Shown: positions 3,772 through 33,129 of the stretch, in pieces
Layout of the letters: each line of letters opens with the position of its first letter
Position numbering within the stretch: the stretch's first letter is position 1
Made by a program: the position numbers and the translations under genes
The notes under the pieces: model-generated
What the model was told of the DNA's origin: nothing
Seen by the model: the letters and a program-made list of their open reading frames with translations, nothing else
Database searches by the model: none
Assembly (NCBI RefSeq): GCF_015244565.1
Contig: NZ_JABCQG010000023.1
Coordinates: 1-33,129 of the forward strand
Length of the DNA: 33,129 nucleotides
DNA from: Gluconobacter vitians
GTDB taxonomy: Bacteria; Pseudomonadota; Alphaproteobacteria; Acetobacterales; Acetobacteraceae
Reading direction: 5' to 3'

Positions 3772-3818
3772 GTGTTGATTTTCGTTGAGAACTGGGTTCT
3801 TCCGCACTTTTCGTGATG
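3772..3818 (+). repeat. left terminal inverted repeat of the ISL3 element
   Basis: The 47-base end matches the reverse complement of 5512-5558 except at three adjacent positions. The inner 32 bases, beginning GAGAACTGGGTTCTTCC, are identical; ISL3-family ends commonly carry such a GGGTTCTTCC-type block. Confidence 0.85.
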
Positions 3819-3886
3819 GGTATCTTGTACTGAGGTTCCGGAACTGGGAAATCCAGAAAGTCGTTCACTTTCATGGATATTCCCCA

Positions 3887-9435: not shown

Positions 9436-9511
9436 GAATAATAGTCCGCAAAAGAGAGAAGGCGGAACCTGTCATAGGTCCATGACCAGCCCTGAAACTG
9501 TCAGAACAGAA

Positions 9512-9919
9512 TCAGGCCATCTGTCTGGGCGGCGGCAGGGCGGGCGCGAACGCACGGCCGACCATGCGATCCGAGCGAGACAGGCCGAAAGGCGCGGTAA
9601 CACCTGAGTAATCAAACGCCCTGGTCACGGAGGGCGGCATCAGCCAATTGGCGACGCAGGCACCCTGGGCGCAGCAATCGCCGCAATGATGACATGGATG
9701 ATGGTCGTGGCACGGTTCATGATTGCAATGTGCGGTCGTCGTATCCGCACGGGATGGCATCTGCATCCCTGGCATGTCGGCCATCGGCTGGGTAACCACA
9801 GCAACTGTAGAGGGCAACGTGGCGGCATGACCCGGCATGACGGATGCCAGCATCAGCCCCACCTGCAGAAGCAGGCAGGCCAGCAACCGTCCCAACCGTA
9901 TCGCGCCGATCTCTTGCAC
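9512..9919 (-). CDS. exported Cys/His/Met-rich small protein, DUF2946-like
   Basis: This 135-aa protein starts at a GTG two bases after the csoR stop codon, with GGGG just upstream inside csoR. A hydrophobic signal segment (about 9-33) ends near G-H-A-A. The centre carries M-x-x-M-P-G-M-Q-M followed by a dense Cys/His cluster, H-C-N-H-E-P-C-H-D-H-H, then C-H-H-C-G-D-C-C and one more Cys. This should bind several copper ions in the periplasm. Small proteins of this style occur in Cop clusters, where some (CopL-like, DUF2946) affect copper tolerance or regulation; the family link is tentative. A longer frame extends upstream into csoR but is composed of csoR codons in another frame, so the GTG is chosen. 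Confidence 0.65.
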   Translation of the reverse strand: MQEIGAIRLGRLLACLLLQVGLMLASVMPGHAATLPSTVAVVTQPMADMPGMQMPSRADTTTAHCNHEPCHDHHPCHHCGDCCAQGACVANWLMPPSVTRAFDYSGVTAPFGLSRSDRMVGRAFAPALPPPRQMA

Positions 9920-9921
9920 GT

Positions 9922-10194
9922 CTACCCCGTCATCTTGCTGACCGTTTCGATCAGTTCCCCGATTTTTTCCTGACGCTCCACCGGATCGCCGGATTCGATC
10001 GCCTCTACAACGCAGCCCGCGATATGTTCGCGCAGAACAAGCCCCTCGAGCCGATGCAACGCCGCCTTGGCGGCCCGAAGCTGAAGCAGAACATCCACGC
10101 AATAGCGGTCTTCGTCCACCATTTTCTGGATGCCACGCACCTGACCTTCGACCCGTTTCAGGCCCTGCGAAATCTTTACCCGTGACTGCCTCAT
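9922..10194 (-). CDS. csoR: CsoR-type copper-sensing repressor
   Basis: This 90-aa, all-helical CsoR/RcnR/FrmR-family regulator has the R-V-E-G-Q-V-R-G-I motif in helix 1. The ligand triad C32, H57 and C61 shows the exact C-x24-H-x3-C spacing of cuprous-copper-sensing CsoR, which separates it from nickel/cobalt RcnR and formaldehyde FrmR. In the family, copper binding releases the repressor from operators with G/C tracts. The ATG at 10194 matches the family start; codons further upstream run into the divergent ATPase gene. It heads the leftward copper run and is divergent from the ATPase, with a palindrome between them, so it probably controls both arms. Confidence 0.92.
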
Positions 10195-10198
10195 TGCG

Positions 10199-10219
10199 CT
10201 ATACCCTACAGGGGCATAC
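10199..10219. promoter_or_regulatory. probable CsoR operator between csoR and the copper ATPase
   Basis: Within these bases TATACCC and GGGGCATA form an interrupted palindrome, with TAT-x-CCC paired to GGG-x-ATA across a five-base centre. A TTGAAG that could act as a -35 box for the rightward gene begins two bases later at 10221. C-tract/G-tract palindromes with AT-rich arms are the normal CsoR target. Its place, five bases from the csoR start codon, suits autoregulation plus control of the ATPase. Confidence 0.55.
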
Positions 10220-10285
10220 CTTGAAGTGCAAGCGATTATGGCATACTTCGACGCCGCGGCTGGCGGCCACAAGCAAGGGGGCTTC

Positions 10286-13238: not shown

Positions 13239-14529
13239 GGAGGGATCGAAGAACCGTTAATTGATACGCTTGGCTGATGATTTCAGGCTTTTGGCGATTT
13301 GATTGACTACTTTTGGGTTCGTTTTCGGTCTGCGTTTTGAGCAGATCGGGGACTGCTCCCCGCTGGATTGCTATGCATTCGCGCTGATCCGCTCCAGGAA
13401 GAGGAAGCGGCGCATATTGTAGACGATATTGGCCAGGCCGATCCGCATGGTGGCCCGGGTGATACCGACAGTTCGGACGAACAGACCCATTTGCGATTTC
13501 TGATCGGCAAAGACGTGCTCAACACGGGATCGGATCACGGACTTTCCGGCATTCGATTTCTGGATATGCCGAGGCATAGGTTTGAGATGCGGCTTCTTCC
13601 TGTGAACCTTTGAGACAAAACCCTGCTTTTCCATGAAGTCTTCATTGGCTTTGGAGCGATAGGCGGTATCCGCCCAGACGCCTGAGGCCGTATTGGTTTT
13701 ATCCAGCAGCCCTTCTCTCAATCGCGCGCCATCATTGGCGGCGGCATCCGTCGTCTTCCATTTCCGGATGAACCGAAACTTCCGGTCGATGGAAATGTGG
13801 GATTTGTATCCAAAGAACGGGATGGCGAGATCACTCGACGGCATGGTTCCATCATCCTGCCGCTTCGCTTTCGTGAACTTCAGCGTCCAGCGCGCATGGC
13901 GATCCTTGTGGGACAATTTGGATGGCTTGTCCTGCCAGTCTTCAGGAATACGTCCTGCCCGGAGATCCGCTTTCTCAGCGTTGGTATTGCGCTGCTTCGG
14001 AGCCGCTACGAGCGTGGCATCCAGGATCTGGCCTGACATCGGCAGATAACCGGCGTTTCGCAGAGTTGCATCAAACCGGTCAAACAGTCTTTCAATGGCT
14101 CTCGCCTGTGTCAGGCGTTCACGGAACAGCCAGACTGTTTTGGCATCAGGCACCCGATCTGAAAGTCCCAGACCAAGAAAGCGCATAAAGGAGAGGCGGT
14201 CGTTGATCAGATATTCCGTCCGTTCATCAGACAGGTTGTTCAACGTCTGGATCACCAGGATCTTGAACATCAACACCGGATCGAACGGCGGTCGTCCGCC
14301 TTTGCTTCCATCTGAATAGGCCAGAGACTTCTCCAGATCAGGACGGAACACCTCAAAATCCACAGTCCGGGAAAACGCTTCGAGCTGATCGCCAAGCCCG
14401 CTTAACCGGGCCAACCGCTCTTCAACATCAAAGAAACCAGCCTGCTTCATAGCGCCATTCCCTCAGTCAGAACCAGACAAATGGAATCACAGAGACAGAC
14501 TCAAAACCAGAGGGTTTTTCGATCCCTCC
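13239..14529 (-). mobile_element. IS5-family insertion sequence, complete copy
   Basis: The element is about 1.29 kb with ends GGAGGGATCGAA. Read inwards, the two ends match in 16 of the first 17 bases, then diverge. It holds one intact transposase gene reading leftward. The edges are confirmed by the second copy entering at 32956 with the same end and nearly the same leader. The flanking bases (CAGAT on the left, ACGTT on the right) show no target duplication, and unrelated truncated genes lie on the two sides. This suggests recombination between copies after insertion. Confidence 0.88.
13371..14450 (-). CDS. IS5-family transposase
   Basis: This 359-aa DDE transposase has an N-terminal DUF772-type domain (G-G-R-P-P-F-D-P-V-L-M-F-K-I-L) followed by the DDE_1 core. 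The core has D-A-T-L-V-A-A-P with the first Asp, G-Y-K-S-H-I-S-I-D, then W-A-D-T-A-Y-R-S with the second Asp. The last is in R-S-R-V-E-H-V-F-A-D-Q-K, holding the final Glu. It ends with N-I-V-Y-N-M-R-R-F, usual for the family. The ATG at 14450 is about 80 bases inside the IS end. No frameshift or stop is present, so the enzyme should be functional. The same start (32 of the first codons visible, two differences) recurs at 33035. Confidence 0.93.
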   Translation of the reverse strand: MKQAGFFDVEERLARLSGLGDQLEAFSRTVDFEVFRPDLEKSLAYSDGSKGGRPPFDPVLMFKILVIQTLNNLSDERTEYLINDRLSFMRFLGLGLSDRVPDAKTVWLFRERLTQARAIERLFDRFDATLRNAGYLPMSGQILDATLVAAPKQRNTNAEKADLRAGRIPEDWQDKPSKLSHKDRHARWTLKFTKAKRQDDGTMPSSDLAIPFFGYKSHISIDRKFRFIRKWKTTDAAANDGARLREGLLDKTNTASGVWADTAYRSKANEDFMEKQGFVSKVHRKKPHLKPMPRHIQKSNAGKSVIRSRVEHVFADQKSQMGLFVRTVGITRATMRIGLANIVYNMRRFLFLERISANA

Positions 14530-18992: not shown

Positions 18993-19022
18993 TTATGACA
19001 GATGTTATTTTGAAATTATAAT
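18993..19022 (+). promoter_or_regulatory. candidate promoter of the hsd operon
   Basis: TATAAT at 19017-19022 is an exact -10 box, with TTATGA 18 bases upstream as a weak -35 box. Transcription would start about 13 bases before the GTG of hsdR, just enough for its AAAGG ribosome site. The surrounding 200 bases are AT-rich and hold no other feature. Confidence 0.4.
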
Positions 19023-19041: not shown

Positions 19042-22000
19042 GTGAAGGAGATGGCGGAGCAGACAGGTAATTTCGCCTTTCTGGCAAAAGACGCGCCAGA
19101 ACTGACCAGACTGGGCCGACTCGCCGAACATTTCTTTCTTCTCGACCCGCCGACATCTCTGATCAAGACGCGGCAGTTCGCGGAACTGACGGCCAAGGAT
19201 ATCGCCGCTAGGCATGGTGAACTGCCCGACACGCGCGCTACCTTTGACGACGTCCTTCGAGCTCTTCAGAGACGCGGATTACTGCAACGTCAGATTGCCG
19301 ACCTGTTTTTTCATATCAAGCGCGTCGGCAATACAGCCGTCCATGAAAACGTAGGCACACGCTCTGAAGCGCTTGAAGCGCTTAAAATGGCCCGCCTGAT
19401 CGGCATCTGGTTCCATCAGGTTTACAATCAGGCCCCCAATTTCCGCGCAGGACCTTTCGTCCCGCCAAAGCCTCCGGCAGACGCGACACCGGCTCTGCGT
19501 GAGGAAATCGAAGCCTTGCGCAAAGTCGTTTCTGATAGTGCCGACACCGAAGCCAAGGCCCGTATGGCCGCGCAGGAAGCCATCGCAGCACAGATAACCC
19601 TCCAAGAACGCGCGGCCAGGGAAGCCGAAGACCGTGCATTCTGGGAGAACTATGCTGCCGAGGCGGACCGGGAACGTCAGACAGCCGAACGCACTCTGGC
19701 GCAGGTACAGGCTCAGGCCGTCGCCTCGCCTGTGACAGAGCTTTCGGATCTGGCACGGATGGCCGATCAGAAAGCGCAGGAACTAGAGATCGATGAGGCG
19801 ACCACGCGCGTACTCATCGACGCGCAGCTTCGTGCCGCAGGCTGGGAAGCGGATAGCAGGACACTCCGCCACGCCAGAGGCACGCGCCCCGAAGCCGGGC
19901 GGGCGATCGCCATTGCGGAATGGCCGACCGAAAGCGGTCGCGTCGATTATGCGCTCTTTATTGATGGTCAGGCCGTCGGCGTCATTGAGGCCAAGCGCGC
20001 CATCAGGAACGTGGCCGAACGCCTCGGCCAGTCCAGACGCTATGGTCGGGACATTATCCTGACGCCCGAACAGAAACTGACCTTCACCTCATCGGAAGAC
20101 GCCACAGCGTTTCGCGTTCCGTTTGTATTTGCGACCAATGGCCGCCCCTATTTCAAACGGCTGGAAACCCTCTCCGGTATCTGGTTCTGGGACGCCCGAA
20201 CCGGGGAGCCACAACGCGCCCTGATGGACTGGTTTTCGCCGTATGATCTGACCGCAAGACTGGAGCAGAAGTTCGATCTCGCAGTCCTGGAAGATCCCGA
20301 CCGCCAGCTCGGCGTCACGGGCCTGCGTGATTATCAGGTTGATGCGATCCATGCCGTCGAGGCGGCCATCGCCAATGGGCAACGGCGCCTTCTCATCGCC
20401 ATGGCGACCGGAACCGGGAAAACCCGCCTAGCCATCGCGCTGATGTACGAGCTTCTTCGCGCCCAGCGGTTCCGGCGCATCCTGTTTCTGGTCGACCGGA
20501 AAGCCCTCGGTATCCAGACGCTGGATTCCATGAGCAATACCGAAACCGCCAGCCTGCTCAAATTCGATAAGATCTTTCCGATTGCCGGAATGGACAAGGC
20601 GATCCCCGACCTTGAGGATCGGGTTCAGGTTTCCACCGTACAGGCCATGATCCGTCGCCTTTTCGACAACCCGGACGGCCAGCATCCGACACCGGGCAGC
20701 TACGATCTCATCATCGTCGATGAGGCGCATCGTGGCTATGTGCTGGATGCCGAATTGCGGGATGACGATCTTGGTTTCCGCAATCTGGACGATTACCTCT
20801 CTGCCTATCGGCGTGTCCTCGATTATTTCGACGCCACCCAGATCGCCCTGACGGCAACTCCTGCTCTGCACACAAGGGAGATTTTCGGCGCACCGGTCTT
20901 TCACTACAGCTATCGTCAAGCCGTCATCGCGGGGCATCTCATTGACCATCGCCCGCCACGCCGCATCACGACAGCTCTCAGCCAGACGGGCATTCACTTT
21001 GACGCGGGCGAGGAAGTCGCCGTCGTGGACTCCCGCACCAATCAGGTCGACCTCTTCGATCTTGAAGACGAAGTCGATTTCGAAGTCGCCGAGTTCAACA
21101 AGAAGGTCCACACGGAAGCCTTCAACCGTGCGGTGGCCACCGCCGTCGCGCTGGAATGCCCGCCGGACAAGCCCGGCAAGACCCTGATCTTCGCGGCCCG
21201 CGATACGCACGCCGATATTCTGGTCAAGGCGCTGCGTCAGGCGTTAATCGAAGAATACGGTCCCCAGCCACATGACATGGTCGAGAAGATCACCGGCGAG
21301 GTGGATCGCCCGAACGAACGGATCAAGGTCTTCCGTAGTGATCCTCGTCCGAAATATGTCGTGACCGTCGATCTGCTGACCACGGGGATCGACATCCCCT
21401 CCATCGTCAATCTCGTCTTCGTGCGGCGCGTCAACAGCCGTATCCTGTATGACCAGATGATCGGACGCGCGACACGCCGGTGCGATGAGATCGGCAAGGA
21501 ATATTTCCGCATTTTCGATGCGGTCGATATTTACGCCAATCTGCAAACCGTCACCGACATGAAACCGGTGGTGGTCAATCCCTCGCTCAGCTTCGCGACC
21601 CTTCTTAGTGATCTGAACCGCGCCACCACGGATGAAGACCGCACCTGGGTCCGCGATCAGATCATCGTAAAACTGCGCCAGCGCGTCCGTCACATTGACC
21701 CCGAATACGCCGCACCGCTTGAAGCCGTGCTTGGCCCGCTGGCCGCCCTGCCAGACCAGCTCCGTGACGCACCACCATCGGCGACGGCGGACCTTTTCGC
21801 CCGGCATCCTTCCCTCGCGACCATCCTCGGCCACGCGGGAAACCGCCCACGCCCGAACGGTATCTATATCTCGGAGCATGAGGACGAGCTTGTCTCCATC
21901 ACCGATACCTTCGGGAAACAGGCCAGCCCCGCCGATTACATCGAAAGTTTCGAGGCCTATATCCGCGCCAACATGAACGCGCTTCCCGCCCTGATCGCGG

Positions 22001-22449
22001 CAACACAGAAGCCCCGCGATCTGACACGGCAGGACCTCAAGGACCTCGCCACCGCACTGGATGAACACGGTTTCTCCGAAGCCAGTCTCCGCCGTGCTTA
22101 CGGCACCGCACGCAACGCCGACATCGCCGCCCACATTCTCGGCTTCGTCCGTCAGGCTGCTCTCGGCGATCCACTGGTGCCTTACGCAACCCGCGTGGAA
22201 AACGGCGTGCAGAAGATCCTTGCGTCCCGAAACTGGACACCCAGACAGACACAATGGCTGAACCGTATCGGCCGCGCCCTGAAAGACCAGCCCGTGGGCG
22301 ACCCAGCCTTACTGTCCGACCCGCTATTTGCACAACAAGGTGGCTTTGACGTAATCAACCAGACCTTTGATTCTGGCCTGAGTGATATATTGAAGGATCT
22401 CAATGCTGCCATCTGGTCCGACGGATCAGAAGGAGGCCGAGCCGCGTAA
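19042..22449 (+). CDS. hsdR: type I restriction enzyme, R (motor/endonuclease) subunit
   Basis: This 1135-aa protein starts with a DUF4145-like helical domain and an Ala/Glu coiled coil (about 155-240). The PD-(D/E)XK nuclease follows: D302 in R-V-D-Y-A and E316-A-K318. The SF2 motor has A-T-G-T-G-K-T ending at T461, D560-E-A-H, L603-T-A-T-P and Q805-M-I-G-R-A-T-R-R. In type I systems this subunit joins M and S, translocates DNA with ATP and cuts far from the site. The GTG at 19042 is preferred over ATG 19051: AAAGG lies eight bases before the GTG, whereas AAGGAG directly touches the ATG. It opens a rightward operon; hsdM begins 17 bases after its stop. Confidence 0.95.
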   Translation: MKEMAEQTGNFAFLAKDAPELTRLGRLAEHFFLLDPPTSLIKTRQFAELTAKDIAARHGELPDTRATFDDVLRALQRRGLLQRQIADLFFHIKRVGNTAVHENVGTRSEALEALKMARLIGIWFHQVYNQAPNFRAGPFVPPKPPADATPALREEIEALRKVVSDSADTEAKARMAAQEAIAAQITLQERAAREAEDRAFWENYAAEADRERQTAERTLAQVQAQAVASPVTELSDLARMADQKAQELEIDEATTRVLIDAQLRAAGWEADSRTLRHARGTRPEAGRAIAIAEWPTESGRVDYALFIDGQAVGVIEAKRAIRNVAERLGQSRRYGRDIILTPEQKLTFTSSEDATAFRVPFVFATNGRPYFKRLETLSGIWFWDARTGEPQRALMDWFSPYDLTARLEQKFDLAVLEDPDRQLGVTGLRDYQVDAIHAVEAAIANGQRRLLIAMATGTGKTRLAIALMYELLRAQRFRRILFLVDRKALGIQTLDSMSNTETASLLKFDKIFPIAGMDKAIPDLEDRVQVSTVQAMIRRLFDNPDGQHPTPGSYDLIIVDEAHRGYVLDAELRDDDLGFRNLDDYLSAYRRVLDYFDATQIALTATPALHTREIFGAPVFHYSYRQAVIAGHLIDHRPPRRITTALSQTGIHFDAGEEVAVVDSRTNQVDLFDLEDEVDFEVAEFNKKVHTEAFNRAVATAVALECPPDKPGKTLIFAARDTHADILVKALRQALIEEYGPQPHDMVEKITGEVDRPNERIKVFRSDPRPKYVVTVDLLTTGIDIPSIVNLVFVRRVNSRILYDQMIGRATRRCDEIGKEYFRIFDAVDIYANLQTVTDMKPVVVNPSLSFATLLSDLNRATTDEDRTWVRDQIIVKLRQRVRHIDPEYAAPLEAVLGPLAALPDQLRDAPPSATADLFARHPSLATILGHAGNRPRPNGIYISEHEDELVSITDTFGKQASPADYIESFEAYIRANMNALPALIAATQKPRDLTRQDLKDLATALDEHGFSEASLRRAYGTARNADIAAHILGFVRQAALGDPLVPYATRVENGVQKILASRNWTPRQTQWLNRIGRALKDQPVGDPALLSDPLFAQQGGFDVINQTFDSGLSDILKDLNAAIWSDGSEGGRAA

Positions 22450-22466
22450 CAGGAAGTGTCTGACGT

Positions 22467-23945
22467 ATGAATCCCGCTGCCGATCTGGTGAATAAACTCT
22501 GGCGCCTCTGCGCCCTGCTCCGCAAAGATGGCGTCACCTACCAGCAATACGTCACGGAACTGACCTATCTGCTCTTTCTGAAAATGGCGTCCGAGCAGAA
22601 GGACGAGACGCGTATTCCCGCACAATACCGCTGGAAAGTCCTGAAAACCGCGAACGAAACCGAAGTTCTTAAACTCTATCGGCAAGCCCTGATTGACCTT
22701 GGAGACGGGGAAAAGGTTTCTGATCGCGCCATCGTCTCCATTTTCCAGAATGCCACGACCATCGTGCGCGATCCGGCCAACCTGCGAAAACTCATCAATG
22801 CCATCGACGAACTGCACTGGTTCACGGAAGAGCGGGATTCTTTCGGTGACGCCTATGAAGGCCTGCTCCAGCGTATGGCGGAAGAGACCAAACGCGGCGC
22901 TGGCCAGTATTTCACCCCCCGCGCCCTGATCGACGTCATGGTCCGTCTGATGCAGCCGGAAGCCGGCGAGATTATTGAAGACCCGGCCTGCGGCACCGGC
23001 GGCTTCCTGATCGCCGCCAATCTGCACATGAAAGCCGAAACGGACGATTACTTCACCCTGTCTCCCAAACAGCAGGCCTTCCAGCTTCAGGATGCCTTAC
23101 GCGGCGTCGAGAACGTCCCCGACACCTATCGCCTGCTGCTGATGAACCTCTATCTGCACAGCATTGACCCGAACAACGTCCTGCTCGGCGACACGCTCAG
23201 TCCGACCGGTGCACGGGCTCAGTTCAAAACTGTCGATCTGATCCTGACCAACCCCCCTTTCGGTCCCGCAGGTGGTCCGCCGACACGCGACGATCTGACG
23301 ATCACCTCAGCCGTCTCCTCCTACCAGCTTCCCTTCGTGGAACACTGCATTCGCGCCTTAAAGCCGGGCGGCCGCGCCGCCGTTATTATCCCGGATAACG
23401 TGTTGTTCGATGACGGGCGCGGCAAGGCTCTGCGCAAAATGCTGATGAACTGGTGCGACCTGCACACGATTTTGCGCCTGCCCGTCGGCATCTTCTACGC
23501 GCAGGGCGTGAAAACAAACGTGCTGTTCTTCACCCGTTCGGAAGACGAGGCGCCGGTCACGGACGCCACGAAAGCCGTCTGGATCTATGACGCCCGCTCC
23601 GGCGCGCCGTCCTATGGCAAGACCAACCCGTTCCGCATCAGCGATCTGGATGATTTCGTCAAAGCCTTCGGCTCGGACCGTAATGGACGCGCAAAACGCA
23701 AGGATCAGGGCGAGGAAGGCCGCTTCCGTCGCTTCACACGCGAGGAGATCGCGGCAAGAGGCGACAACCTCGATATCACCTGGCTGAAAGACACAACCGA
23801 TCAGGCCGAAGACGGGCTGGAAACACCGGAGGATATCGCGGCGGCTATCGAGGGGCATCTAAAATCGGCTCTGGAAGAAATCGCGGCGCTAATGGCGGAG
23901 CTTGAGAGGGATGCGGTAGATACTGGCGCGGAGGCAGCAGAGTGA
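22467..23945 (+). CDS. hsdM: type I restriction enzyme, M (adenine methyltransferase) subunit
   Basis: This 492-aa subunit has the HsdM helical N-domain (L-W-R-L-C-A-L-L-R-K-D-G-V-T-Y near the start) and then an N6-adenine methyltransferase core. G-Q-Y-F-T-P precedes motif I, D172-P-A-C-G-T-G-G-F180, which binds S-adenosylmethionine, and the catalytic motif IV is N262-P-P-F265. Both are intact. With HsdS it methylates host sites and gives the R complex its specificity. AGGAAG about ten bases before the ATG serves as ribosome site. The last four bases overlap hsdS (GTGA). Confidence 0.96.
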   Translation: MNPAADLVNKLWRLCALLRKDGVTYQQYVTELTYLLFLKMASEQKDETRIPAQYRWKVLKTANETEVLKLYRQALIDLGDGEKVSDRAIVSIFQNATTIVRDPANLRKLINAIDELHWFTEERDSFGDAYEGLLQRMAEETKRGAGQYFTPRALIDVMVRLMQPEAGEIIEDPACGTGGFLIAANLHMKAETDDYFTLSPKQQAFQLQDALRGVENVPDTYRLLLMNLYLHSIDPNNVLLGDTLSPTGARAQFKTVDLILTNPPFGPAGGPPTRDDLTITSAVSSYQLPFVEHCIRALKPGGRAAVIIPDNVLFDDGRGKALRKMLMNWCDLHTILRLPVGIFYAQGVKTNVLFFTRSEDEAPVTDATKAVWIYDARSGAPSYGKTNPFRISDLDDFVKAFGSDRNGRAKRKDQGEEGRFRRFTREEIAARGDNLDITWLKDTTDQAEDGLETPEDIAAAIEGHLKSALEEIAALMAELERDAVDTGAEAAE

Positions 23946-25219
23946 TGTTGCCGCAGGGATGGGTTGAAGCAACAATTAATGATTTAGGGGATTACCTCAA
24001 TGGAATGGCGTTCAAACCATCCGATTGGGAAGATCAAGGTACGGGTATTATACGAATTCAAAATCTAACTAACCCCAAAAAACCACTCAACAGGACTCGT
24101 CGAAATTTCGATGAAAAATATCTTGTAAGGCGAGATGATATACTTGTTAGCTGGTCGGCTACCCTTGATGTGTTTTTTTGGGATCGTGAGGACGCGGTTC
24201 TGAATCAGCATATATTCAAAGCAATCCCCTCTTCGGTTGTAGACAAGCGCTTCTTATTTATTGCTCTCAAAAAAGCGATTTATGAGATGATGAAATCTGA
24301 ACATCTTCATGGCTCGACTATGAAACATATTAACCGAGGCCCTTTCCTCGCGCATAAAGTATGGCTTCCCCCTCTCGCCGAACAACGTCGCATCGTCGCC
24401 AAACTGGACAGCCTGACCGCCCGCATCGCCCGCGCCCGGGCAGAGTTGGAGCGTGTTCGAGTGCTTTCTTTTAGGGCCTGGAAATCGGCAATCAATCAGT
24501 CTTTTCAGAAGCTCAAGTGTGAAAATGTACCTTTAAAGCAGATAGCCCAAATTACGGGAGGACTTACCAAAAACGCCAAGCGCCGCTCACTTCCATTGCA
24601 GGTTCCATATCTCCGTGTTGCAAATGTTTATGCCAATGAACTGCGTTTAAGCGATGTGGCTCGAATAGGATGCTCGGAAAAAGAATATAAAAAAACCAAA
24701 CTGGAAAAGAACGATATTCTAATAGTTGAAGGAAATGGAAGTATCGATCAGGTAGGAAGGGCAGCTCTATGGGACGGCGAAATTGGCGGGTGCACGCACC
24801 AAAATCATCTAATTAGAATTCGTCCCAGCGAATCAATATCATCTGAATTTTTGCTGCTTTTTTTAGAATCTTCACTGGGGCGAAAATATATCGAGACATC
24901 CGCCTCATCAACATCGGGCCTCCATACTTTGAGCATATCAAAAGTTGGTAATTTTTCATGCCCGCTCCCGAGCCGCCTATTACAAGACGCTACGGTGAAA
25001 TATTTGAATTTGTGTCGTGATCGCCTTTTGGCAAAGCGAATAGAAATTGATCGTGCCCTGACCCTCCTCGACCGCCTCGAATTTTCCCTTCTCGCCAAAG
25101 CCTTCCGGGGCGAACTCGTTACGCAGGACCCAAATGACGAACCCGCCAGCGTGTTGCTCGACCGCATCCGGGCCGAACGTGCTGCGGATACGAAACCGGG
25201 ACGGAAACGCCGGGCATGA
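23942..25219 (+). CDS. hsdS: type I restriction enzyme, S (specificity) subunit
   Basis: This 425-aa subunit has the usual duplicated plan. Target-recognition domain 1 covers about 1-140, and the conserved helical spacer begins L-A-E-Q-R-R-I-V-A-K-L-D at about 145. Domain 2 spans about 190-345, and the C-terminal conserved helix has L-L-A-K-A-F-R-G-E-L near 385. Each domain half reads one part of a split DNA site. The two recognition domains are clearly AT-richer than the spacer, the C-terminal repeat and hsdM, as expected if they are exchanged between alleles. It starts with GTG overlapping the hsdM stop; ATG at 23945 is an alternative. The stop overlaps the next gene's ATG (ATGA). Confidence 0.94.
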   Translation: MMLPQGWVEATINDLGDYLNGMAFKPSDWEDQGTGIIRIQNLTNPKKPLNRTRRNFDEKYLVRRDDILVSWSATLDVFFWDREDAVLNQHIFKAIPSSVVDKRFLFIALKKAIYEMMKSEHLHGSTMKHINRGPFLAHKVWLPPLAEQRRIVAKLDSLTARIARARAELERVRVLSFRAWKSAINQSFQKLKCENVPLKQIAQITGGLTKNAKRRSLPLQVPYLRVANVYANELRLSDVARIGCSEKEYKKTKLEKNDILIVEGNGSIDQVGRAALWDGEIGGCTHQNHLIRIRPSESISSEFLLLFLESSLGRKYIETSASSTSGLHTLSISKVGNFSCPLPSRLLQDATVKYLNLCRDRLLAKRIEIDRALTLLDRLEFSLLAKAFRGELVTQDPNDEPASVLLDRIRAERAADTKPGRKRRA

Positions 25220-25572
25220 CCGACGAACCGTTGCTGCCGCCGGACAAATGGCTCGCCATGGGTGGAGACCTGACAAACTGCCTGTGGGACAGCACCGGCG
25301 ATCTGGCGTTTTACGAGGATCTTCCGATCACCGATGCGCTTAAGGCACGTCTGGAAGCATGGGAAAGATGGGCAGGCGACTATGAGGACTTTTTGCCACG
25401 CGAAAAGCGAGCGCCTTTCGATCTGAAGGGCTTCACAGCCTCGGGCCTCGAAATCGCGTGTGCCCTGAAAGCGGAACTTCCCGACTGGACCATCATCTAT
25501 CGCGACGAGTTCAGGTGGCAGTACCAGAAGGAACTCGGGCTCACACCCGCCGAATGTGAATACGAGGTTTGA
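25216..25572 (+). CDS. acidic 118-aa hypothetical protein inside the restriction operon
   Basis: This protein is unrecognised. It is strongly acidic, with roughly twice as many Asp/Glu as Lys/Arg, rich in Trp, Leu and Pro, and without signal or membrane segment. Features are W-L-A-M-G-G-D-L-T-N-C-L-W-D at about 12-25, W-E-R-W-A-G-D-Y-E-D-F at about 49-59 and P-D-W-T-I-I-Y-R-D-E-F near 88-98. Its ATG overlaps the hsdS stop, so it is translated with the specificity subunit. An acidic partner of a restriction complex could be a regulator or DNA mimic, but this is conjecture. Its stop overlaps a possible TTG start of the Mrr-type gene. Confidence 0.65.
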   Translation: MTDEPLLPPDKWLAMGGDLTNCLWDSTGDLAFYEDLPITDALKARLEAWERWAGDYEDFLPREKRAPFDLKGFTASGLEIACALKAELPDWTIIYRDEFRWQYQKELGLTPAECEYEV

Positions 25573-25580
25573 TCCAGCTC

Positions 25581-26510
25581 ATGGCCGTTCCTGATTACCA
25601 ATCTCTCATGCTCCCCGTCCTGCGCCTCGCCGCCACTGGCATTCGTCGCGTGCCGGAAATCGCGGAGGCAATTGCGGACGAGTTTGCGTTGTCATCGGAA
25701 GACCGGACTGCATTGCTTCCCAGCGGTAAGCAAAGATTGCTACCCAACCGCGTTCACTGGGCCAAAACCTATCTGATGAAGGCGGGTTTACTGTCTTCTC
25801 CCGCGCGAGGGCAGTTCACCATCACGCCAGCGGGTAATGACCTTATTGCCTCCAACCCGTCTGCCATTACGCGCACTATGCTCGAGCAGTATCCGTCGTT
25901 CGTCAGCTTTGTAAGTGGCAAGTCAGAGGGGACTACGGAACAGACAACCCTCTCTATAATGACCGATGCTACTGCGGCAGCCAACCAGACGCCCGAAGAG
26001 CGCATTGAGGCAGCTCACACGGAACTGATGTCCGAATTGCGCTCGGACCTTCTGGAACAGATCCTGCAACAGAGCCCCGCCTTCTTTGAACAACTGATTG
26101 TCGATCTGCTGGTCGCTATGGGTTACGGGGGCAGCCACGAAGATGCGGCAAAACGCCTTGGCGGCACGGGTGACGGCGGCGTGGACGGTGTGATTAACGA
26201 AGATCGCCTTGGGCTGGATCGGATCTATGTGCAGGCGAAGCGTTATGCCGCTCATGTCAGTGTCGGGCGCCCCGACATACAGGCGTTTGTTGGCTCGCTT
26301 GTGGAACATGGATCGAACAAAGGCGTGTTTGTCACCACCTCATCCTTCAGCGCCCCGGCAATGGACTTCGTCCACCATCTGAGCCAGCGCGTCATTCTGA
26401 TCGATGGAGCAACCCTGGCTGACCTGATGATTGAACATGGCGTAGGTGTGCGTGTCAGCCGCGCGGTAGAGATCAAGAAGCTCGATCTGGATTTCTTCGA
26501 TCCGGGCTGA
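25581..26510 (+). CDS. mrr: Mrr-family restriction endonuclease
   Basis: This 309-aa protein has an N-terminal winged-helix Mrr_N domain (about 1-90; contains W-A-K-T-Y-L-M-K-A-G-L and a beta-wing ending I-T-P-A-G). A linker follows, then the Mrr catalytic domain (about 150-290). Catalytic residues are D202 in G-T-G-D-G-G-V-D-G and Q218-A-K220, the Q-x-K version of PD-(D/E)XK usual for Mrr. F-V-T-T-S-S-F-S and I-L-I-D-G-A-T-L-A are later core strands. Mrr enzymes cut methylated DNA, so beside a type I methylase its specificity must spare the HsdM mark. The ATG at 25581 has GAGG 11 bases upstream; TTG at 25569, overlapping the previous stop, is possible. Confidence 0.9.
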   Translation: MAVPDYQSLMLPVLRLAATGIRRVPEIAEAIADEFALSSEDRTALLPSGKQRLLPNRVHWAKTYLMKAGLLSSPARGQFTITPAGNDLIASNPSAITRTMLEQYPSFVSFVSGKSEGTTEQTTLSIMTDATAAANQTPEERIEAAHTELMSELRSDLLEQILQQSPAFFEQLIVDLLVAMGYGGSHEDAAKRLGGTGDGGVDGVINEDRLGLDRIYVQAKRYAAHVSVGRPDIQAFVGSLVEHGSNKGVFVTTSSFSAPAMDFVHHLSQRVILIDGATLADLMIEHGVGVRVSRAVEIKKLDLDFFDPG

Positions 26511-26618
26511 ACGATCTTGCGCGGCCAGATATGTGCCGTCGCGCAGATGGCGCTGTCGATCGCCTGAAGATCACTTGAAAATCACGCTCTGATCCCCGAC
26601 AGTCTTCTGTAACGAAGT

Positions 26619-29600
26619 ATGGATTTTCTTCATATTGCGCTCAACGAGATCACAGGCGCATGTGTGAGATTATTGAGCGTTGTGGAGATTTCAGTGACAG
26701 CCGACCATGAACAGACTGCTGAGGACGTTGAGATCACCACAGAAGAAAAAAAGCCCGAACTTCGGATCGTCTTACAGGAAACAGTCAACGCTAGCCTGTG
26801 GGAGAATAGTGTCCCGATCCTTGAAGAGTTGGAATTCGACAACAGAAGCGAAAATACATATCCGGTTATTGAAATAACCATTACCAGCGAGCCGCATTTT
26901 CTGACGCCTCGGTCGTGGATGCTCCAGCAGATCGGTCCCGATGAACTTCGGGTTCTGAACGATCGTGACCTGACACTGGATGGCTCATTGCTTTCGGCCC
27001 AGACCGAGGCATCAAGGGCCGTCGTGACCATTGTCGCCCGTGCGGGAGAACAGGAACTTGCGAGGGTAACACGCGATGTCCGGATGCTTGCCCGCAATGA
27101 ATGGGGTGGCCTGTCCGGTATCCCCGACATCCTCGCCGCCTTTGTACTTCCCAATGACCCCGCTATTGCCCGTATCCTGCGCAGCGCATCCGAGATCCTC
27201 CGGCAAGCGGGGCAATCCCCTTCCCTGGAAGGTTATCAGGGGGACAAGGCACGCGTATGGGCGCAGGCTCAGGCGCTGTGGTGCGCTATCTGCGCCCTTG
27301 ATATCACCTACATCAATCCACCTGCATCTTTCGTTGAAAACGGCCAGCGTATCCGTCTTCCAACACAGGTTGTCGAGGAACGTCTGGCGACCTGTCTCGA
27401 TACGACCGTTCTGTTCGCCGCATGTCTCGAAGCCATTGGTCTGCGTCCCCTGATCGTTCTGACGCGCGGGCACGCTTTCGCGGGCCTGTGGCTGGCCCAG
27501 CAGGATGCGGGTTCTTCGGTGGTCCAGGATCTGCCTGGCATTCGCAACCGCTTGAAGCTCGACGATCTACGTGTCTTTGAAACAACTTTGGCGACGGCAG
27601 CACGCAAACCCAGCTTCGCCGCAGCATGCGAGCGGGGCGAGGCCCATCTGCGCGACATAGACGATGACGATCCAGATGCGTTCCGCGAAGTTATCGATAT
27701 TCACCGGGCACGCCTGCGCCGTATCCGTCCCCTCTCCACCTCTGCTGCCTCGCCAGGGAACGAAGCGGCAGAAACCGTATCTAATGATTCAGCGGGACAA
27801 CCGACATTCGAGGCCCCTCCCCCATTGCGTGAGGAGCGTGAAGAAGAGCGCCTGCCAGACCGTCCGGCAGATCGCGTGCAACGATGGTGCAATCGTCTGC
27901 TCGACATGTCCGCGCGGAACCGATTGCTGAACCTCCCCAAGTCAGATCGGCAACTGATTGAACTCGACTGCCCTGATCCGGCGTCATTGGAAGACATGCT
28001 GGCGGAGATGCGCTCGGGCAGCAATGCCAGGCCGCTTCGTTTTGTCGCAGCGCCCGGGCTCATGGACGACGATGATCCCAGAAACAAAGCACTCCATCAG
28101 GGACGACATCATGAGGATGCGTCCAGAGCGTATGCGCTGGAAGCCCTTAAAAGACGCGAGATCGTCGTCCAGCGGAAAGAGGACAAACTTCAAACCGCAC
28201 TGACCGAAATTTATCGTCATGCCCGAAGCTCCGAGCAGGAAGGCGGCACGAACGTGCTTTTCCTGACGATCGGGGCGCTGGCCTGGACATCGCAGGATAA
28301 ATCCAAGCCGTATCTCGCTCCCCTCATTCTCGTTCCGGTCATTCTGGAAAGAGCGAGCATCAAATCGCCCTTCACACTACGGGCGCACGGGGATGAAACC
28401 CGTATCAACACAACGCTGCTGGAAATGCTGCGTGCCGAATACGATATCCGGATTCCCCTGCTAGAGGGGGAGGCACTTCCGGAGGACGACGCCGGCCTTG
28501 ATGTTCCAAAAATCATCGAAGCCTTCCGGCTGCACCTTCGACACATTCCCGGATGGGAAATTCGCGAGCATGTCAGTCTGACGACATTGAGCTTTGCGAA
28601 ATTCCTGATGTGGAAGGATCTGCTGGAACGGAAAGAGCATCTTGCCACGAACGACGTCGCGAGCCGCCTGCTCAACGGAGTCAAGGACGGCGAGCAGACA
28701 GGTTCTGCCCCATCGAACGGTTTTGATCCTGCTGGTGACCTCGACGACGCTCTCGCCAAAGCCGATCTCGTCTGCCCGATGGAAGCCGACTCATCTCAGC
28801 TCAAGGCCATCGCACGCGCGGCAGCGGGCGAAAATTTCGTCCTGATCGGGCCGCCCGGCACAGGAAAAAGCCAGACAATCGGCAACATTATTGCCAATAC
28901 GCTCGCACAGGGTCGTACGATCCTTTTCGTGGCTGAAAAACGGACAGCGCTTGAAGTGGTCCGTGCGCGTCTGGCCAAACTGGGCATTGCTGAATTCTGT
29001 CTGGATCTGTTCTCGCCCAAGGCGAACAAGATGGCGGTGCTGCAACAGTTTCAGACAGCGCAGGCTGCGCTTGAGGATTTCCAGCCTGAGGAATATGCAC
29101 GGACAAAACAGACACTGGATACCATTCGCACTGAACTGAACGCTTACGTCCGCGATCTCCATACGCCGCGTCGCAATGGCTGGACGCCCTATCGCGGAAT
29201 TGGCGTCACTCTTCGTGCTCAGGAAACATCCATCGTCCGCATTCCTCTGGAATGGGCCAATGCGGATGTTCATTCAAAAGCCGATTACGATACATTGGTT
29301 CAGTCCGTTGAGGATCTGTCGACCCTTTATGCCCGTATCGGAGATATTGTCGTCTCACCCAGACTGGCAGGTCTTGAGCAGACGGACTGGTCACCACTGT
29401 GGGAAGGCAGACTGCTTGACACCGCCAATGGAGCCCTCTCCGCCCTCGACAAACTAAGAGAGGCGGCGTTGAGTGTTACCAAGGCGCTTTCGCTGCCTCA
29501 GAACAATCTTTCCTATCAGCGGCTTGAGCAGATCAGAGCGCTTTGCTCCCATCTTCTGTTGCCCCACGCAGCGGCATGGAGCTTCACGGAAAACGCCCGC

Positions 29601-32600
29601 GAAACACGCGATGCCGTATTACTGGAACAGGCATCTGTTACACGGTGCCACGCTCTGACAGCAGATCTTGATACCCGCTGGAAAGACAGCGTACGCGCTC
29701 TTCCTTTGGCTGAAACCCTTGCAGAATGGCGTACCATCAAGGAAAAGTGGCTGCTGGCCCGTTCCATGGGGCAGAAGGCGATCCGCAAACGGCTTGAACC
29801 TCATGCCATCGCTCTGCCTGAAGACTGCGAAAACGACCTTGAAGCTCTTGTCGAACGTGCGGCCCTTCTTGAAAAGCTCGGGAATGCTTCTCACAAGACA
29901 AGCATCGGTCCGATGTGGCGGAGTCTGGATACTGACTTCGACGCAATCAACGCCGCATTTGACTGGGGACAGGAAACACGCACCCGCCTTGCGGGCTGCA
30001 CAGCCGAAACGGGAGAGCTGCTCACTGCCCGCACTCATCTCAGGACTCTGCTGGTAGAAGGTCAGGATCTTCTGGCACCTGGCGGAACAATCCACGCATC
30101 CCTGACCCGTTATCTCGCGGCATTTGCCGAGCTTGATGCCGCCCTGACAACACTGGGAAATTGTAGTGCCAGCGACGTTACCCGGCTGGTTCCCCCCGAA
30201 AATCCCAGTTGGCTCGAACAAACCACGGACAGGCTGCGGAACTGGAAAGAGGCCACTCGCGAATTGCGCGACTGGTGTTCATGGCGCCGCGCCTGCCATC
30301 AAGCCGCGCAACTCGGTCTGACACCCATGATCGAAGCCATCGAACACGGGTTAGTCGCGCAAGATGACGTACCGGCCGTTTTCGAAGCAAATTATGCGCG
30401 CTGGTGGACCATGCACGCCGTCAGTGATTCTGCTCTGCTGAGTAGTTTCGTGGCTGCAACCCATGAAGGGCGCATCATCAGATTCCGCGAACTGGACGAA
30501 AAGCTGAAAACCCTGGCCATTCGTCTGATCCGTGCACGCCTTGCCGGACGTATTCCCGGCGAGGCCGCGCGGCAGCACGATCCGGAATACAAAGTCCTGA
30601 CGCGCGAGATTGCCAAGAAAACCCGTCATCTTCCGGTCCGTCAATTGGCCGAAAAGATGCCAGGCGCCCTTCGGACCCTCACGCCTTGTCTCATGATGAG
30701 TCCGTTGTCAGTCGCCCAGTACCTGCCTGCTGATGCTGCTCCGTTCGACCTTGTTATCTTCGACGAAGCGTCCCAGATCGCAACATGGGACGCAATTGGC
30801 GCAATCGGTCGTGGCAAGCAGGTCATCGTGGTTGGCGATCCCAAGCAGTTGCCACCCACGGATTTCTTCACGGCGGGTCGGGCAGCGGCTGATGCTGATA
30901 CATCCGATGAGATGACCGATCTTGACTCGATCCTTGACGAATGCCTCGGAGCAGGTGTCCCGGCCATCAGTCTGGAGTGGCATTATCGCAGTCGTCACGA
31001 AAGCCTGATCGCTTTTTCAAATCAGGCTTATTACGGCGGCGATTTGGTTACCTTTCCGTCACCGGTCACGGCGGATCAGGCAGTCTCTTTCCGCTTTGTC
31101 CCGAAAGGGATTTATGAACCCGGCAAAAATGGGTCGCACACCAATCCTGCGGAGGCGCGGATGGTGATCGCCGAGGCTGTCCGGATCATGCGCGATGGTA
31201 CCGATCGCTCGGTTGGTATCGTCACGTTCAACGGAGAGCAGCAGAAACTGATTGTCGATCTTCTGGATGCTGAAGTCCGAAAAGACCCTGCGCTTGAAAG
31301 ATTCACAGGCGAGCAGGCTCATGAAGCGGTGCTTGTAAAAAATCTGGAAAACGTGCAGGGCGAAGAGCGTGATGTCATGCTGTTCTCGCTCACTTACGGG
31401 CCTGACATCGCAGGCAAAATCTCCATGAATTTTGGCCCCCTGAACCGTGATGGCGGGGAACGTCGTCTCAATGTGGCGATCACCCGTGCTCGTGAACAGT
31501 TAATCGTGTTTGGGTCGCTGCGGGGGGATCAGATTGCGATAGAACGAACACGCGCCGCAGGTGTTAGGGATCTGCGCCGCTTCCTGTTGTTCGCTGAACG
31601 AGGCCCAATGGCTCTGGCCGGCGCACATGAAGGGTCTGTCGGAGGATATGACAGTCTCTTCGAAGTCGAAGTTGCGACGATGCTTCAGACAAAAGGATGG
31701 GAGGTCACCACACAGGTCGGTGTTTCCGGATTCCGCGTGGATCTTGGCGTCATTGATCCCGATTTACCCAGCACGTTCCTCGCAGGCGTCGAATGCGATG
31801 GCGCCACATATCACCGGAGCGCAACGGCGCGCGACCGAGACCGCCTGAGACAGGCTGTTCTTGAAAATCTCGGCTGGAATATTCTGCGCATCTGGTCCAC
31901 GGACTGGTGGACGAATGCCCCGCGCGAGGTTGAACGGATTGATGCTGCTCTACAGAGCTTTCTGGAGATTGCCCGTCAGAAGCGCATTGATCAGGCAGAG
32001 CGGGATGCTGCAAAAGCTGAAGCACTGCTAAACGCGACTGTGAATGAGCGCGAAGAGAAACCTGCTGTTTCGACCGAAACCCCGAAGGTTGAATCTGTCA
32101 CTGACGAACCCTTCTCAGAGCCGTCACCTGAAGAGATCACGAATTTAGAGCTCCTTTACGCAAAGGCCCCCGAACATATTCCATCAGATGACACGACCAG
32201 TTCTGATGTCGAGGCCGATCCATCCAAATTGTCGCAGGACGATTATTTGCCGACATTGGCGCGCCTTGTCGTTCGCACAATCGATCAGGCAAAGGTCATT
32301 CGGGAAGATGTTCTTATTCAGACTCTGTCACGGGCACATGGCTTCAGTCGCGTCGGTCGTGAGATTCGTGAACGCGTCCAACGCGCTATTCCCTCATCAA
32401 TGGCACGCACCGAAGAAGATGTTGGCACTTTTCTGTGGTCGGATCGACAGCCTGTCGTTCCACGGCTGTCCCTGACATCATTAACGGCTGAGAAATCCTT
32501 GGACCCGGCGCAGGTCCCTCTTGCGGCCCTCGTAGACCTTGCCTGCCGCGCTATCGCCATCGACTGCCCGGACGAGGATGCTATTGCGAGAATGCGCGCT

Positions 32601-32705
32601 GCCTGCGGCATGAGCCGTATGGGACAGGCAACGCGCGCTCGCTTCGCCACGGCTCTGCATGAAGCGCGTCGTATGAAAGATGGACATGACACGCCTCATC
32701 TATAG
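26619..32705 (+). CDS. giant DUF4011 / SF1 helicase / Vsr-like nuclease / DUF3320 defence protein
   Basis: This 2028-aa protein is probably one antiphage machine. Residues about 1-160 look beta-rich. A transglutaminase-like segment follows, with C259-L-D and G-H285-A-F-A-G-L-W. A DUF4011 region lies at about 420-650. The SF1 (COG1112) helicase has G744-P-P-G-T-G-K-S751, D1382-E-A-S-Q, G1406-D-P-K-Q-L-P-P and a final R-L-N-V-A-I-T-R-A-R. The nuclease is Vsr/MTES_1575-like, with E1682, D1708 and E1725-C-D1727. DUF3320 closes the protein (about 1870-1925). The order matches the DUF4011-helicase-Vsr class reported as antiphage (called Hhe, from memory). The ATG at 26619 has only a weak GAAG; a later start would remove part of the N-domain. 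It lies 108 bases after the Mrr gene, likely in the same transcript. Confidence 0.85.
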   Translation: MDFLHIALNEITGACVRLLSVVEISVTADHEQTAEDVEITTEEKKPELRIVLQETVNASLWENSVPILEELEFDNRSENTYPVIEITITSEPHFLTPRSWMLQQIGPDELRVLNDRDLTLDGSLLSAQTEASRAVVTIVARAGEQELARVTRDVRMLARNEWGGLSGIPDILAAFVLPNDPAIARILRSASEILRQAGQSPSLEGYQGDKARVWAQAQALWCAICALDITYINPPASFVENGQRIRLPTQVVEERLATCLDTTVLFAACLEAIGLRPLIVLTRGHAFAGLWLAQQDAGSSVVQDLPGIRNRLKLDDLRVFETTLATAARKPSFAAACERGEAHLRDIDDDDPDAFREVIDIHRARLRRIRPLSTSAASPGNEAAETVSNDSAGQPTFEAPPPLREEREEERLPDRPADRVQRWCNRLLDMSARNRLLNLPKSDRQLIELDCPDPASLEDMLAEMRSGSNARPLRFVAAPGLMDDDDPRNKALHQGRHHEDASRAYALEALKRREIVVQRKEDKLQTALTEIYRHARSSEQEGGTNVLFLTIGALAWTSQDKSKPYLAPLILVPVILERASIKSPFTLRAHGDETRINTTLLEMLRAEYDIRIPLLEGEALPEDDAGLDVPKIIEAFRLHLRHIPGWEIREHVSLTTLSFAKFLMWKDLLERKEHLATNDVASRLLNGVKDGEQTGSAPSNGFDPAGDLDDALAKADLVCPMEADSSQLKAIARAAAGENFVLIGPPGTGKSQTIGNIIANTLAQGRTILFVAEKRTALEVVRARLAKLGIAEFCLDLFSPKANKMAVLQQFQTAQAALEDFQPEEYARTKQTLDTIRTELNAYVRDLHTPRRNGWTPYRGIGVTLRAQETSIVRIPLEWANADVHSKADYDTLVQSVEDLSTLYARIGDIVVSPRLAGLEQTDWSPLWEGRLLDTANGALSALDKLREAALSVTKALSLPQNNLSYQRLEQIRALCSHLLLPHAAAWSFTENARETRDAVLLEQASVTRCHALTADLDTRWKDSVRALPLAETLAEWRTIKEKWLLARSMGQKAIRKRLEPHAIALPEDCENDLEALVERAALLEKLGNASHKTSIGPMWRSLDTDFDAINAAFDWGQETRTRLAGCTAETGELLTARTHLRTLLVEGQDLLAPGGTIHASLTRYLAAFAELDAALTTLGNCSASDVTRLVPPENPSWLEQTTDRLRNWKEATRELRDWCSWRRACHQAAQLGLTPMIEAIEHGLVAQDDVPAVFEANYARWWTMHAVSDSALLSSFVAATHEGRIIRFRELDEKLKTLAIRLIRARLAGRIPGEAARQHDPEYKVLTREIAKKTRHLPVRQLAEKMPGALRTLTPCLMMSPLSVAQYLPADAAPFDLVIFDEASQIATWDAIGAIGRGKQVIVVGDPKQLPPTDFFTAGRAAADADTSDEMTDLDSILDECLGAGVPAISLEWHYRSRHESLIAFSNQAYYGGDLVTFPSPVTADQAVSFRFVPKGIYEPGKNGSHTNPAEARMVIAEAVRIMRDGTDRSVGIVTFNGEQQKLIVDLLDAEVRKDPALERFTGEQAHEAVLVKNLENVQGEERDVMLFSLTYGPDIAGKISMNFGPLNRDGGERRLNVAITRAREQLIVFGSLRGDQIAIERTRAAGVRDLRRFLLFAERGPMALAGAHEGSVGGYDSLFEVEVATMLQTKGWEVTTQVGVSGFRVDLGVIDPDLPSTFLAGVECDGATYHRSATARDRDRLRQAVLENLGWNILRIWSTDWWTNAPREVERIDAALQSFLEIARQKRIDQAERDAAKAEALLNATVNEREEKPAVSTETPKVESVTDEPFSEPSPEEITNLELLYAKAPEHIPSDDTTSSDVEADPSKLSQDDYLPTLARLVVRTIDQAKVIREDVLIQTLSRAHGFSRVGREIRERVQRAIPSSMARTEEDVGTFLWSDRQPVVPRLSLTSLTAEKSLDPAQVPLAALVDLACRAIAIDCPDEDAIARMRAACGMSRMGQATRARFATALHEARRMKDGHDTPHL

Positions 32706-32713
32706 GAAAATGT

Positions 32714-32743
32714 AGCCTGCTAACTTTAAGCTGGCAGGCTTTC
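32714..32743 (+). terminator. terminator of the defence operon
   Basis: AGCCTGC at 32714-32720 pairs with GCAGGCT at 32734-32740, followed by TTT. It begins nine bases after the helicase stop codon and overlaps the end of the leftward VapC-like remnant. Confidence 0.6.
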
Positions 32744-32954
32744 AAAGGGATCAAAGGCTGTGACACCCGTTCCCTGAAAATGTCGCCGGTTGCGGGTGAG
32801 CACGACGTAGCCCTTCACCATCGCTGGCGCCGCGATCAACAGATCAACCATTTCGGGCATGCGGCCTACCTGACATACAGTCCGTGTCATACGCCAAGTT
32901 CGGGTGCTGATAGCGGTAAAGAAGCATTTCGAGCCGTGCAGACAGGCGTCCAGC
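32726..32954 (-). pseudogene. VapC-like PIN-domain toxin, C-terminal remnant
   Basis: Read leftward, the frame ends with M-V-D-L-L-I-A-A-P-A-M-V, V-L-T-R-N-R-R-H-F, G-T-G-V and F-D-P-F-E. This is the C-terminal half of a PIN-domain VapC, holding the later acidic residue(s) and the T-R-N-x-x-x-F motif. Upstream, another frame continues the similarity (R-L-E-M-L-L-Y-R-Y-Q), which suggests a frameshift. The IS5-family copy then cuts off the N-terminus and first catalytic Asp. No VapB antitoxin is visible. It is converging with, and overlaps the terminator of, the helicase gene. Confidence 0.6.
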
Positions 32955-33129
32955 TGGAGGGATCGAAAAACTCTCTGGTTTTGAGGCTATCTTTGTGATT
33001 CCATTCGTCTGGTTCTGACTAAGGGAATGGCGCTATGAAGCAGGCTGGTTTCTTTGATGTTGAAGAGCGTCTTGTCCGGTTGAGTGGGCTCGGTGATCAG
33101 CTCGAAGCATTTTCCTGGACTGTGGATTT
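32955..33129 (+). mobile_element. IS5-family insertion sequence, second copy (cut by window edge)
   Basis: The end GGAGGGATCGAAAAAC at 32956 and the leader up to the transposase start match the element at 13239-14529 almost base for base, in opposite orientation. Only the first 174 bases are inside the window. With the first copy it brackets about 18.4 kb. Confidence 0.88.
33035..33129 (+). CDS. IS5-family transposase, N-terminal part (cut by window edge)
   Basis: Thirty-one full codons are visible, beginning M-K-Q-A-G-F-F-D-V-E-E-R-L. They match the transposase at 13371-14450, except Val for Ala in L-V-R-L and Trp for Arg in F-S-W-T. The two copies are therefore close but not identical and have had time to diverge. 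Whether this gene is intact cannot be seen. Confidence 0.88.
   Translation, partial: MKQAGFFDVEERLVRLSGLGDQLEAFSWTVD

Follow-up and report, generated by a model that had tools for sequence, protein, structure and literature searches.

A CdiI-family immunity-like gene in an exchange slot of a Gluconobacter vitians type I restriction operon

We analyzed a 33,129-nucleotide stretch of Gluconobacter vitians DNA (hereafter the window) that carries a six-gene run on its plus strand, in which the type I restriction-modification genes hsdR, hsdM and hsdS are followed by a gene for a 118-amino-acid (aa) protein, p118, by the endonuclease gene mrr and by a giant gene of the ProA family. By sequence profile and predicted fold, p118 is a CdiI-family immunity protein. 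Its gene sits in a cassette slot; the ends of hsdS and mrr on either side are conserved, and alleles replace one another within it. We favour the reading, with a probability of about 0.57, that this is an hsdRMS operon whose 3' tail serves as an add-on site for independent modules, with p118 as an orphan immunity protein. The features of the operon, in window numbering, are:

19042-22449, plus strand: hsdR, type I restriction endonuclease subunit, 1135 aa; NCBIfam NF008521, 1377 bits (cut-off 729)
22467-23945, plus strand: hsdM, N6-adenine methyltransferase subunit, 492 aa; Pfam N6_Mtase (E 6.6e-68) and HsdM_N
23942-25219, plus strand: hsdS, specificity subunit, 425 aa; Pfam Methylase_S in two stretches
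25216-25572, plus strand: p118, acidic 118-aa CdiI-family (BWH57-type) immunity-like protein
25581-26510, plus strand: mrr, type IV modification-dependent endonuclease, 309 aa counted from ATG
26511-26618, plus strand: mrr/ProA spacer, 108 bases
26619-32705, plus strand: ProA-family giant gene, 2028 aa; NCBIfam NF058533 "anti-phage protein ProA" and PADLOC PDC-S37
32714-32740, plus strand: weak terminator-like hairpin after the stop of the giant gene

p118 and its slot between hsdS and mrr

Searched as a single sequence, p118 matched nothing in Pfam, NCBIfam or PADLOC. It was identified through a 16-row profile searched against solved structures, which found CdiI of Serratia marcescens BWH57 (PDB 7M5F; E 2.8e-10), and through structure matches of its predicted fold, which is that of CdiI. 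An earlier note on this DNA had called the protein unknown and acidic; it can now be placed in the CdiI family, and its acidity was borne out (net charge -13, pI 4.2). The CdiI of known structure acts by binding a BECR-fold toxin and blocking it (PMC8616854, excerpt). We mapped the toxin-contact residues described there onto p118; four can be aligned (K5, D9, Y10 and W16). D9 and W16 are kept in the window-type protein, K5 is replaced by A and Y10 by L; most other members keep K5 and Y10 or change them conservatively.

No toxin gene was found directly upstream of p118, where hsdS lies, and the locus is not a complete contact-dependent growth inhibition (CDI) locus (cdiB-cdiA-cdiI). At E 0.001, the genome holds no second gene of the p118 kind. 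A search for TPS-domain CdiA was blank in the window genome (0/1) and equally blank in all 14 control genomes, while VipB of the type VI secretion system gave no match in the window genome and matched in only one of the 14 controls. The anti-restriction proteins Ocr and ArdA are not among the listed structure matches of p118, an absence that does not exclude likeness. Two more distant CdiI-family genes in another member of the Acetobacteraceae (G065; L139 6094-10979) lie directly 3' of tandem toxin-like open reading frames (ORFs) that share the start MQLVGEV, one of them with a Deam_C deaminase domain (E 1.2e-54).

Evidence for the slot comes from comparison with related operons. p118 tracks neither hsdM nor hsdS, because it is about 43-44% identical in K. 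melaceti or G047, where hsdM is 96% identical, and 99% identical in Gluconobacter kanchanaburiensis, where hsdS is 42% and hsdM 98% identical. Synonymous divergence (dS) agrees: between the window and K. melaceti it is 0.27 for hsdM and above 2 for p118, and between the window and G. kanchanaburiensis it is 0.026 for p118 and about 0.2 for the flanks. We compared identity in 50-base steps along the window with L025, L026 and G047. Two steps at the 3' end of hsdS (25066-25165) gave 40-46 identical bases of 50, steps across p118 gave 21-35 of 47-50, and steps at the 5' end of mrr gave 48, 41 and 38 of 50 in L026 and 40, 45 and 36 in G047; L025 lacks the mrr 5' end. In L026 and G047, identity dips over p118 and rises again where mrr begins. 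A 400-base tract (25166-25565) comprising the end of hsdS and p118 is near-identical to that of G. kanchanaburiensis (L021), with flanks about 6-14% diverged; judged from these alignments, it is a recent local exchange.

Both p118 alleles are under purifying selection, with within-allele ratios of nonsynonymous to synonymous divergence (dN/dS) of 0.07-0.14 and 0.16-0.23. The window-type allele accompanies an intact mrr in 4/4 operons and the other allele a broken mrr in 3/3 (L025, L026 and G047).

Close relatives of p118 were found in 6 of the 195 related genomes, at 15 loci in genome contigs and on 3 plasmids; phage records contained none, and IMG/VR contained one locus (L152). After removal of overlaps, 20 loci were compared (the 15 contig loci, the 3 plasmids, G047 and the window). 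Type I genes adjoin p118 in 10/20 of them, in different arrangements. The operon of the window recurs in L021, L022, L023, L025, L026 and G047 (the L022 and L026 contigs hold only the hsdS end), and the start of p118 overlaps the hsdS stop in the window and in all six. Elsewhere, p118 has type I neighbours in Niveispirillum (L032; hsdR and hsdM 47 and 54% identical), stands upstream of a different hsdM-S-R in Bombella (L024) and is convergent with hsdR on a plasmid of Acetobacter ascendens (L018). These last systems belong to different families and show at least three kinds of arrangement. No type I gene was seen beside p118 in the other ten loci (L019, L020, L027-L031 and L033-L035), whose settings include a cobalamin gene cluster (Neokomagataea) and a cas gene neighbourhood; two copies are damaged, by an internal stop (L020) and a frameshift (L027). 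Scored as a character on the p118 tree, the presence of type I neighbours requires five changes (3-5 over bootstraps) and is not clearly clustered, with 87/500 shuffles as low; the deep forks of the tree are weak.

Outside the window, p118, hsdS and mrr stand together intact in N. vanlangensis, G. kanchanaburiensis and Gluconacetobacter sacchari. The co-occurrence of the 118-aa gene with both hsdS and mrr, which the earlier note had proposed to look for, thus extends beyond this genome and is not confined to one site in close relatives.

A 358-aa ORF of Bombella favorum (L024:9992-11068) has p118 as its N-terminal part, joined to a C-terminal domain that is predicted to be helical. We considered a HEPN RNase for this domain and did not retain it: the likeness was by eye only (LRNQIMHGG in the relative L146), neither Pfam nor PADLOC returned a match, phmmer gave E 0.62 or worse, and the L024 model (predicted confidence, pLDDT, 67.8 from 3 rows) had no confident structure match.

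Gene content and separability of the operon

The six ORFs run in one direction as the earlier note described, and domain searches agreed with its names for them (hsdRMS, Mrr and DUF4011-helicase-Vsr), with catalytic motifs found. Four-base overlaps join hsdM to hsdS (GTGA) and hsdS to p118 (ATGA), and gaps of 17, 8 and 108 bases follow hsdR, p118 and mrr, respectively. HsdR contains an N-terminal DUF4145, HSDR_N, a superfamily 2 helicase and EcoEI_R_C (Pfam) with the motifs GVIEAK, GTGKT and DEAH, and its NCBIfam score lies above the threshold set for the type I endonuclease PRK11448. HsdM matches PADLOC MTase_I (E 1.1e-186) and has the NPPF motif. Encoded together with intact domains and motifs, hsdR, hsdM and hsdS are, by gene content, a type I restriction-modification system. 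G+C drops to 44.9% over 24001-25000, within hsdS. Mrr combines an Mrr_N winged helix (E 1.4e-27) with Mrr_cat (E 2e-34) in Pfam, matches PADLOC mREase_IV (E 6e-131) and has the active-site motif QAK, in keeping with the QxK of its family; its frame is also opened by a TTG upstream, at 25569. The giant protein scores 2115.6 bits against NF058533 (cut-off 1500), a curated family of stand-alone anti-phage proteins, over profile positions 1-1903 of 1903, and 1204 bits against PDC-S37. Its Pfam domains are DUF4011, a split superfamily 1 helicase (AAA_11/AAA_12), the Vsr-like nuclease MTES_1575 and DUF3320, and the expected catalytic motifs are present.

The hairpin terminator that the earlier note placed at the end of the operon held up in part. 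A G+C-rich hairpin does follow the last stop, but at most three T stand behind it, a consensus terminator scan missed it, and its folding does not stand out from that of shuffled sequence (z -1.08; 30/200 shuffles equally good). The same scan found a promoter-like site ahead of hsdR (18995-19022) and none in the mrr/ProA spacer; with 3 promoter-like sites against a shuffle mean of 6.6, and 14 terminator-like sites against 14.4, it showed no excess and was not used.

The full six-gene order was seen only in the window and in N. vanlangensis, with genes 88-92% identical except hsdS (33%). Because the order recurs there, it is not due to chance. Relatives of hsdM (E 1e-120) were found in 7/195 genomes at 8 loci, and a search of a class sample of 385 genomes at E 1e-130 added two more, the third match being the window's own genome. 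We compared the 3' tails of ten hsdM-type operons. The tail is p118-mrr-ProA in the window, p118-mrr in G010, p118 with a broken mrr in G047, mrr alone in G015:C1 and G025, and a 1072-aa gene in G100, with nothing evident in G054 and G382. A p118 profile search found none beside hsdS in L091, L092, L142, L143, L144, L153 and L154. In G015:C2 (L144 9035-11742) and G209 (L154 3791-6321), a related hsdM-hsdS pair is followed by genes that by eye encode an ATPase and a small HNH-like protein, in a Septu-like pair; here too the 3' end of a type I operon carries cargo.

Every module was also found apart from its neighbours. hsdRMS-mrr occurs without p118 in G015 and G025, the p118-mrr operons of G. 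kanchanaburiensis and G. sacchari have no ProA, and p118 is kept after hsdS despite a broken mrr in L025, L026 and G047. Mrr relatives occur in 29/195 genomes; of 20 mrr regions examined, several of which end at contig ends, 2 contain hsdRMS and 18 do not. ProA relatives are more widespread (46/195 genomes; E 1e-30). Taking best matches first, 17 of 19 genomes have ProA without mrr or type I genes (the G019 contig begins at the gene, leaving its upstream side unjudgeable); the exceptions are G025, with an mrr remnant upstream, and G092, with a type I system alongside. On the Gluconobacter albidus conjugative plasmid pGS1191_1 (L149 12001-18477), a 94-codon mrr remnant and an intact ProA gene have other genes of defence and toxin type nearby (FRG domain, HNH, RelE/ParE and VapBC). 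The window, N. vanlangensis and G025 share a similar mrr/ProA spacer, the 3' end of which can also be recognized in G014, where no mrr was found. Since the spacer is conserved and its end is kept there, ProA may carry its own promoter in these 108 bases.

The remainder of the window holds a likely second defence gene (189-2717, plus strand), predicted from its 843-aa product, which has a SIR2_2 domain (E 9.1e-16), an nSTAND-type NTPase region just under cut-off and weak matches to Thoeris ThsA models (E 2.4e-11). A copper-resistance block (6800-12661) encodes CopB, a multicopper oxidase and a heavy-metal P-type ATPase, and is bounded by transposase genes of ISL3 type (3785-5497) and DDE_Tnp_1 type (13371-14447). 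Past the operon, at about 32740-33129, lies a minus-strand fragment that by eye resembles the C-terminal end of VapC/PIN (compare the PIN gene of L010), followed at the window end by the start of a transposase-like ORF.

Possible roles of p118

Beyond the homologies, gene order, slot exchange, separability and selection shown here, we infer the following molecular roles. HsdRMS would methylate the cell's own DNA and cut unmethylated incoming DNA, and Mrr would cut DNA with foreign methylation (PMC12707154, excerpt). The suggestion of the earlier note that Mrr could punish such methylation is reasonable given the family to which Mrr belongs. In several Acetobacteraceae hsdRMS has mrr attached, and in two genera ProA is added as well, a gene that elsewhere occurs without the rest; to judge by its family name, this helicase fused to a Vsr-like nuclease would act as a separate anti-phage protein. 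p118, presumably produced by translational coupling with hsdS, would bind and block a nuclease toxin delivered by competing bacteria. There are precedents for CdiI genes that stand alone as orphans, and their presumed function is to neutralise toxins delivered by competitors (PMC9086364, excerpt). The operon would thereby pair phage defence with protection from rivals, each module working alone.

Several points weigh against this role for p118. No cognate toxin was identified for it in our searches, and with K5 and Y10 lost, the partner of the window-type protein may not be a BWH57-like toxin. Its recurrence beside rare type I loci looks greater than would be expected of a random passenger. 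The match between p118 allele and mrr state, seen in two lineages only, hints at a link between p118 and Mrr.

One rather unlikely possibility is that an interbacterial-toxin immunity protein has been recruited into the operon as a dedicated nuclease inhibitor: with its changed contact face, window-type p118 would hold Mrr, or else the type I nuclease, in check, and mismatching allele swaps at the hsdS-p118-mrr slot would lead to mrr loss. The main rival to orphan immunity, in our view unlikely, is specific to Mrr: p118 would be a co-opted inhibitor that keeps a potentially self-toxic methyl-directed nuclease off until foreign or aberrant methylation appears. The position of p118 8 bases ahead of mrr, the allele match (4/4 and 3/3) and the changed contact residues are consistent with this, as are the neutralisation of a nuclease-fold toxin by the CdiI family (PMC8616854, excerpt) and the established toxicity of Mrr with certain methyltransferases (PMC12707154, excerpt). 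However, the allele correlation amounts to two lineages, window-type relatives in Bombella (L024) show no mrr within 20 kb, and mrr stands without p118 in G015, G025 and the other 18 regions. These last cases argue against a general need for p118, not against a private pairing of window-type p118 with Mrr.

That p118 regulates the type I enzyme, as a DNA mimic or as a factor that alleviates restriction through HsdS or HsdR, we consider improbable. Its acidity, the hsdS overlap in all seven operons of this type and the type I neighbours at half of its loci, across different families, would fit such a role. On the other side, no type I gene was seen next to p118 at the remaining loci, the predicted fold is that of CdiI with no anti-restriction protein among the matches, and p118 diverges where hsdM is conserved and is conserved where hsdS diverges.

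The proposal of the earlier note, that all six genes form one interdependent composite defence system, now appears very improbable. The genes are collinear and tightly packed, and the pairing of type I restriction with Mrr is not limited to a single lineage; the order repeats in a second genus, the mrr/ProA spacer is conserved, and mrr remnants precede ProA in G025 and on the G. albidus plasmid. We nevertheless reject it as the leading explanation because every boundary is broken in some relative (p118 missing, p118 or ProA kept with a broken mrr, ProA absent or, usually, alone) and ProA relatives far outnumber those of hsdM (46/195 against 7/195). The six-gene order should not be taken as one machine. 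Least probable of all is a non-functional passenger carried by recombination at hsdS. The hotspot nature of hsdS and the 400-base tract shared with G. kanchanaburiensis favour it; the purifying selection and the hsdS overlap, both seen in both alleles, speak against it.

Whichever role applies, an "unknown" gene of a restriction operon can now be tested as an immunity protein of CdiI type that sits in an exchangeable slot. If p118 is a plain orphan immunity protein, phage defence and rival defence travel in one operon and share a recombination hotspot. If it restrains Mrr, it would show how cells cope with a methyl-directed nuclease next to their own DNA methyltransferase, and a broader nuclease-inhibitor role would link polymorphic-toxin immunity to the control of self-toxic restriction enzymes.

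Comparison with known systems

Each part of the operon is of a known kind, and hsdRMS beside mrr has been described (PMC12707154, excerpt). Among the titles and abstract openings listed by our literature searches, none joins a CdiI-type gene to a type I operon or to an hsdS-mrr exchange slot. Unlike CdiI of S. marcescens BWH57, p118 has no toxin gene alongside, sits between hsdS and mrr, and has K5 and Y10 replaced. It resembles the lone orphan CdiI of Salmonella Typhi in that a CdiI gene is kept in a genome apparently without its CDI locus, but the Salmonella gene lies in an islet (PMC9086364, excerpt) and p118 is a cassette inside a restriction operon.

The giant protein fits ProA rather than its relative Hhe (NF042953; 850 bits, under the cut-off of 2000), and its place behind a restriction operon is rare among the ProA relatives examined. 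Excerpts of PMC11718236 and PMC12390725 did not confirm ProA as the DefenseFinder system Prometheus. A parallel in arrangement is the enteric immigration control region, where hsdRMS accompanies mrr, mcrBC or gmrSD (PMC12707154, excerpt): both place type I beside Mrr-type restriction with variable content. Here, however, mrr follows hsdS in the same direction, past p118 and an 8-base gap, there is no mcrBC, and CdiI-type and ProA genes have been added.

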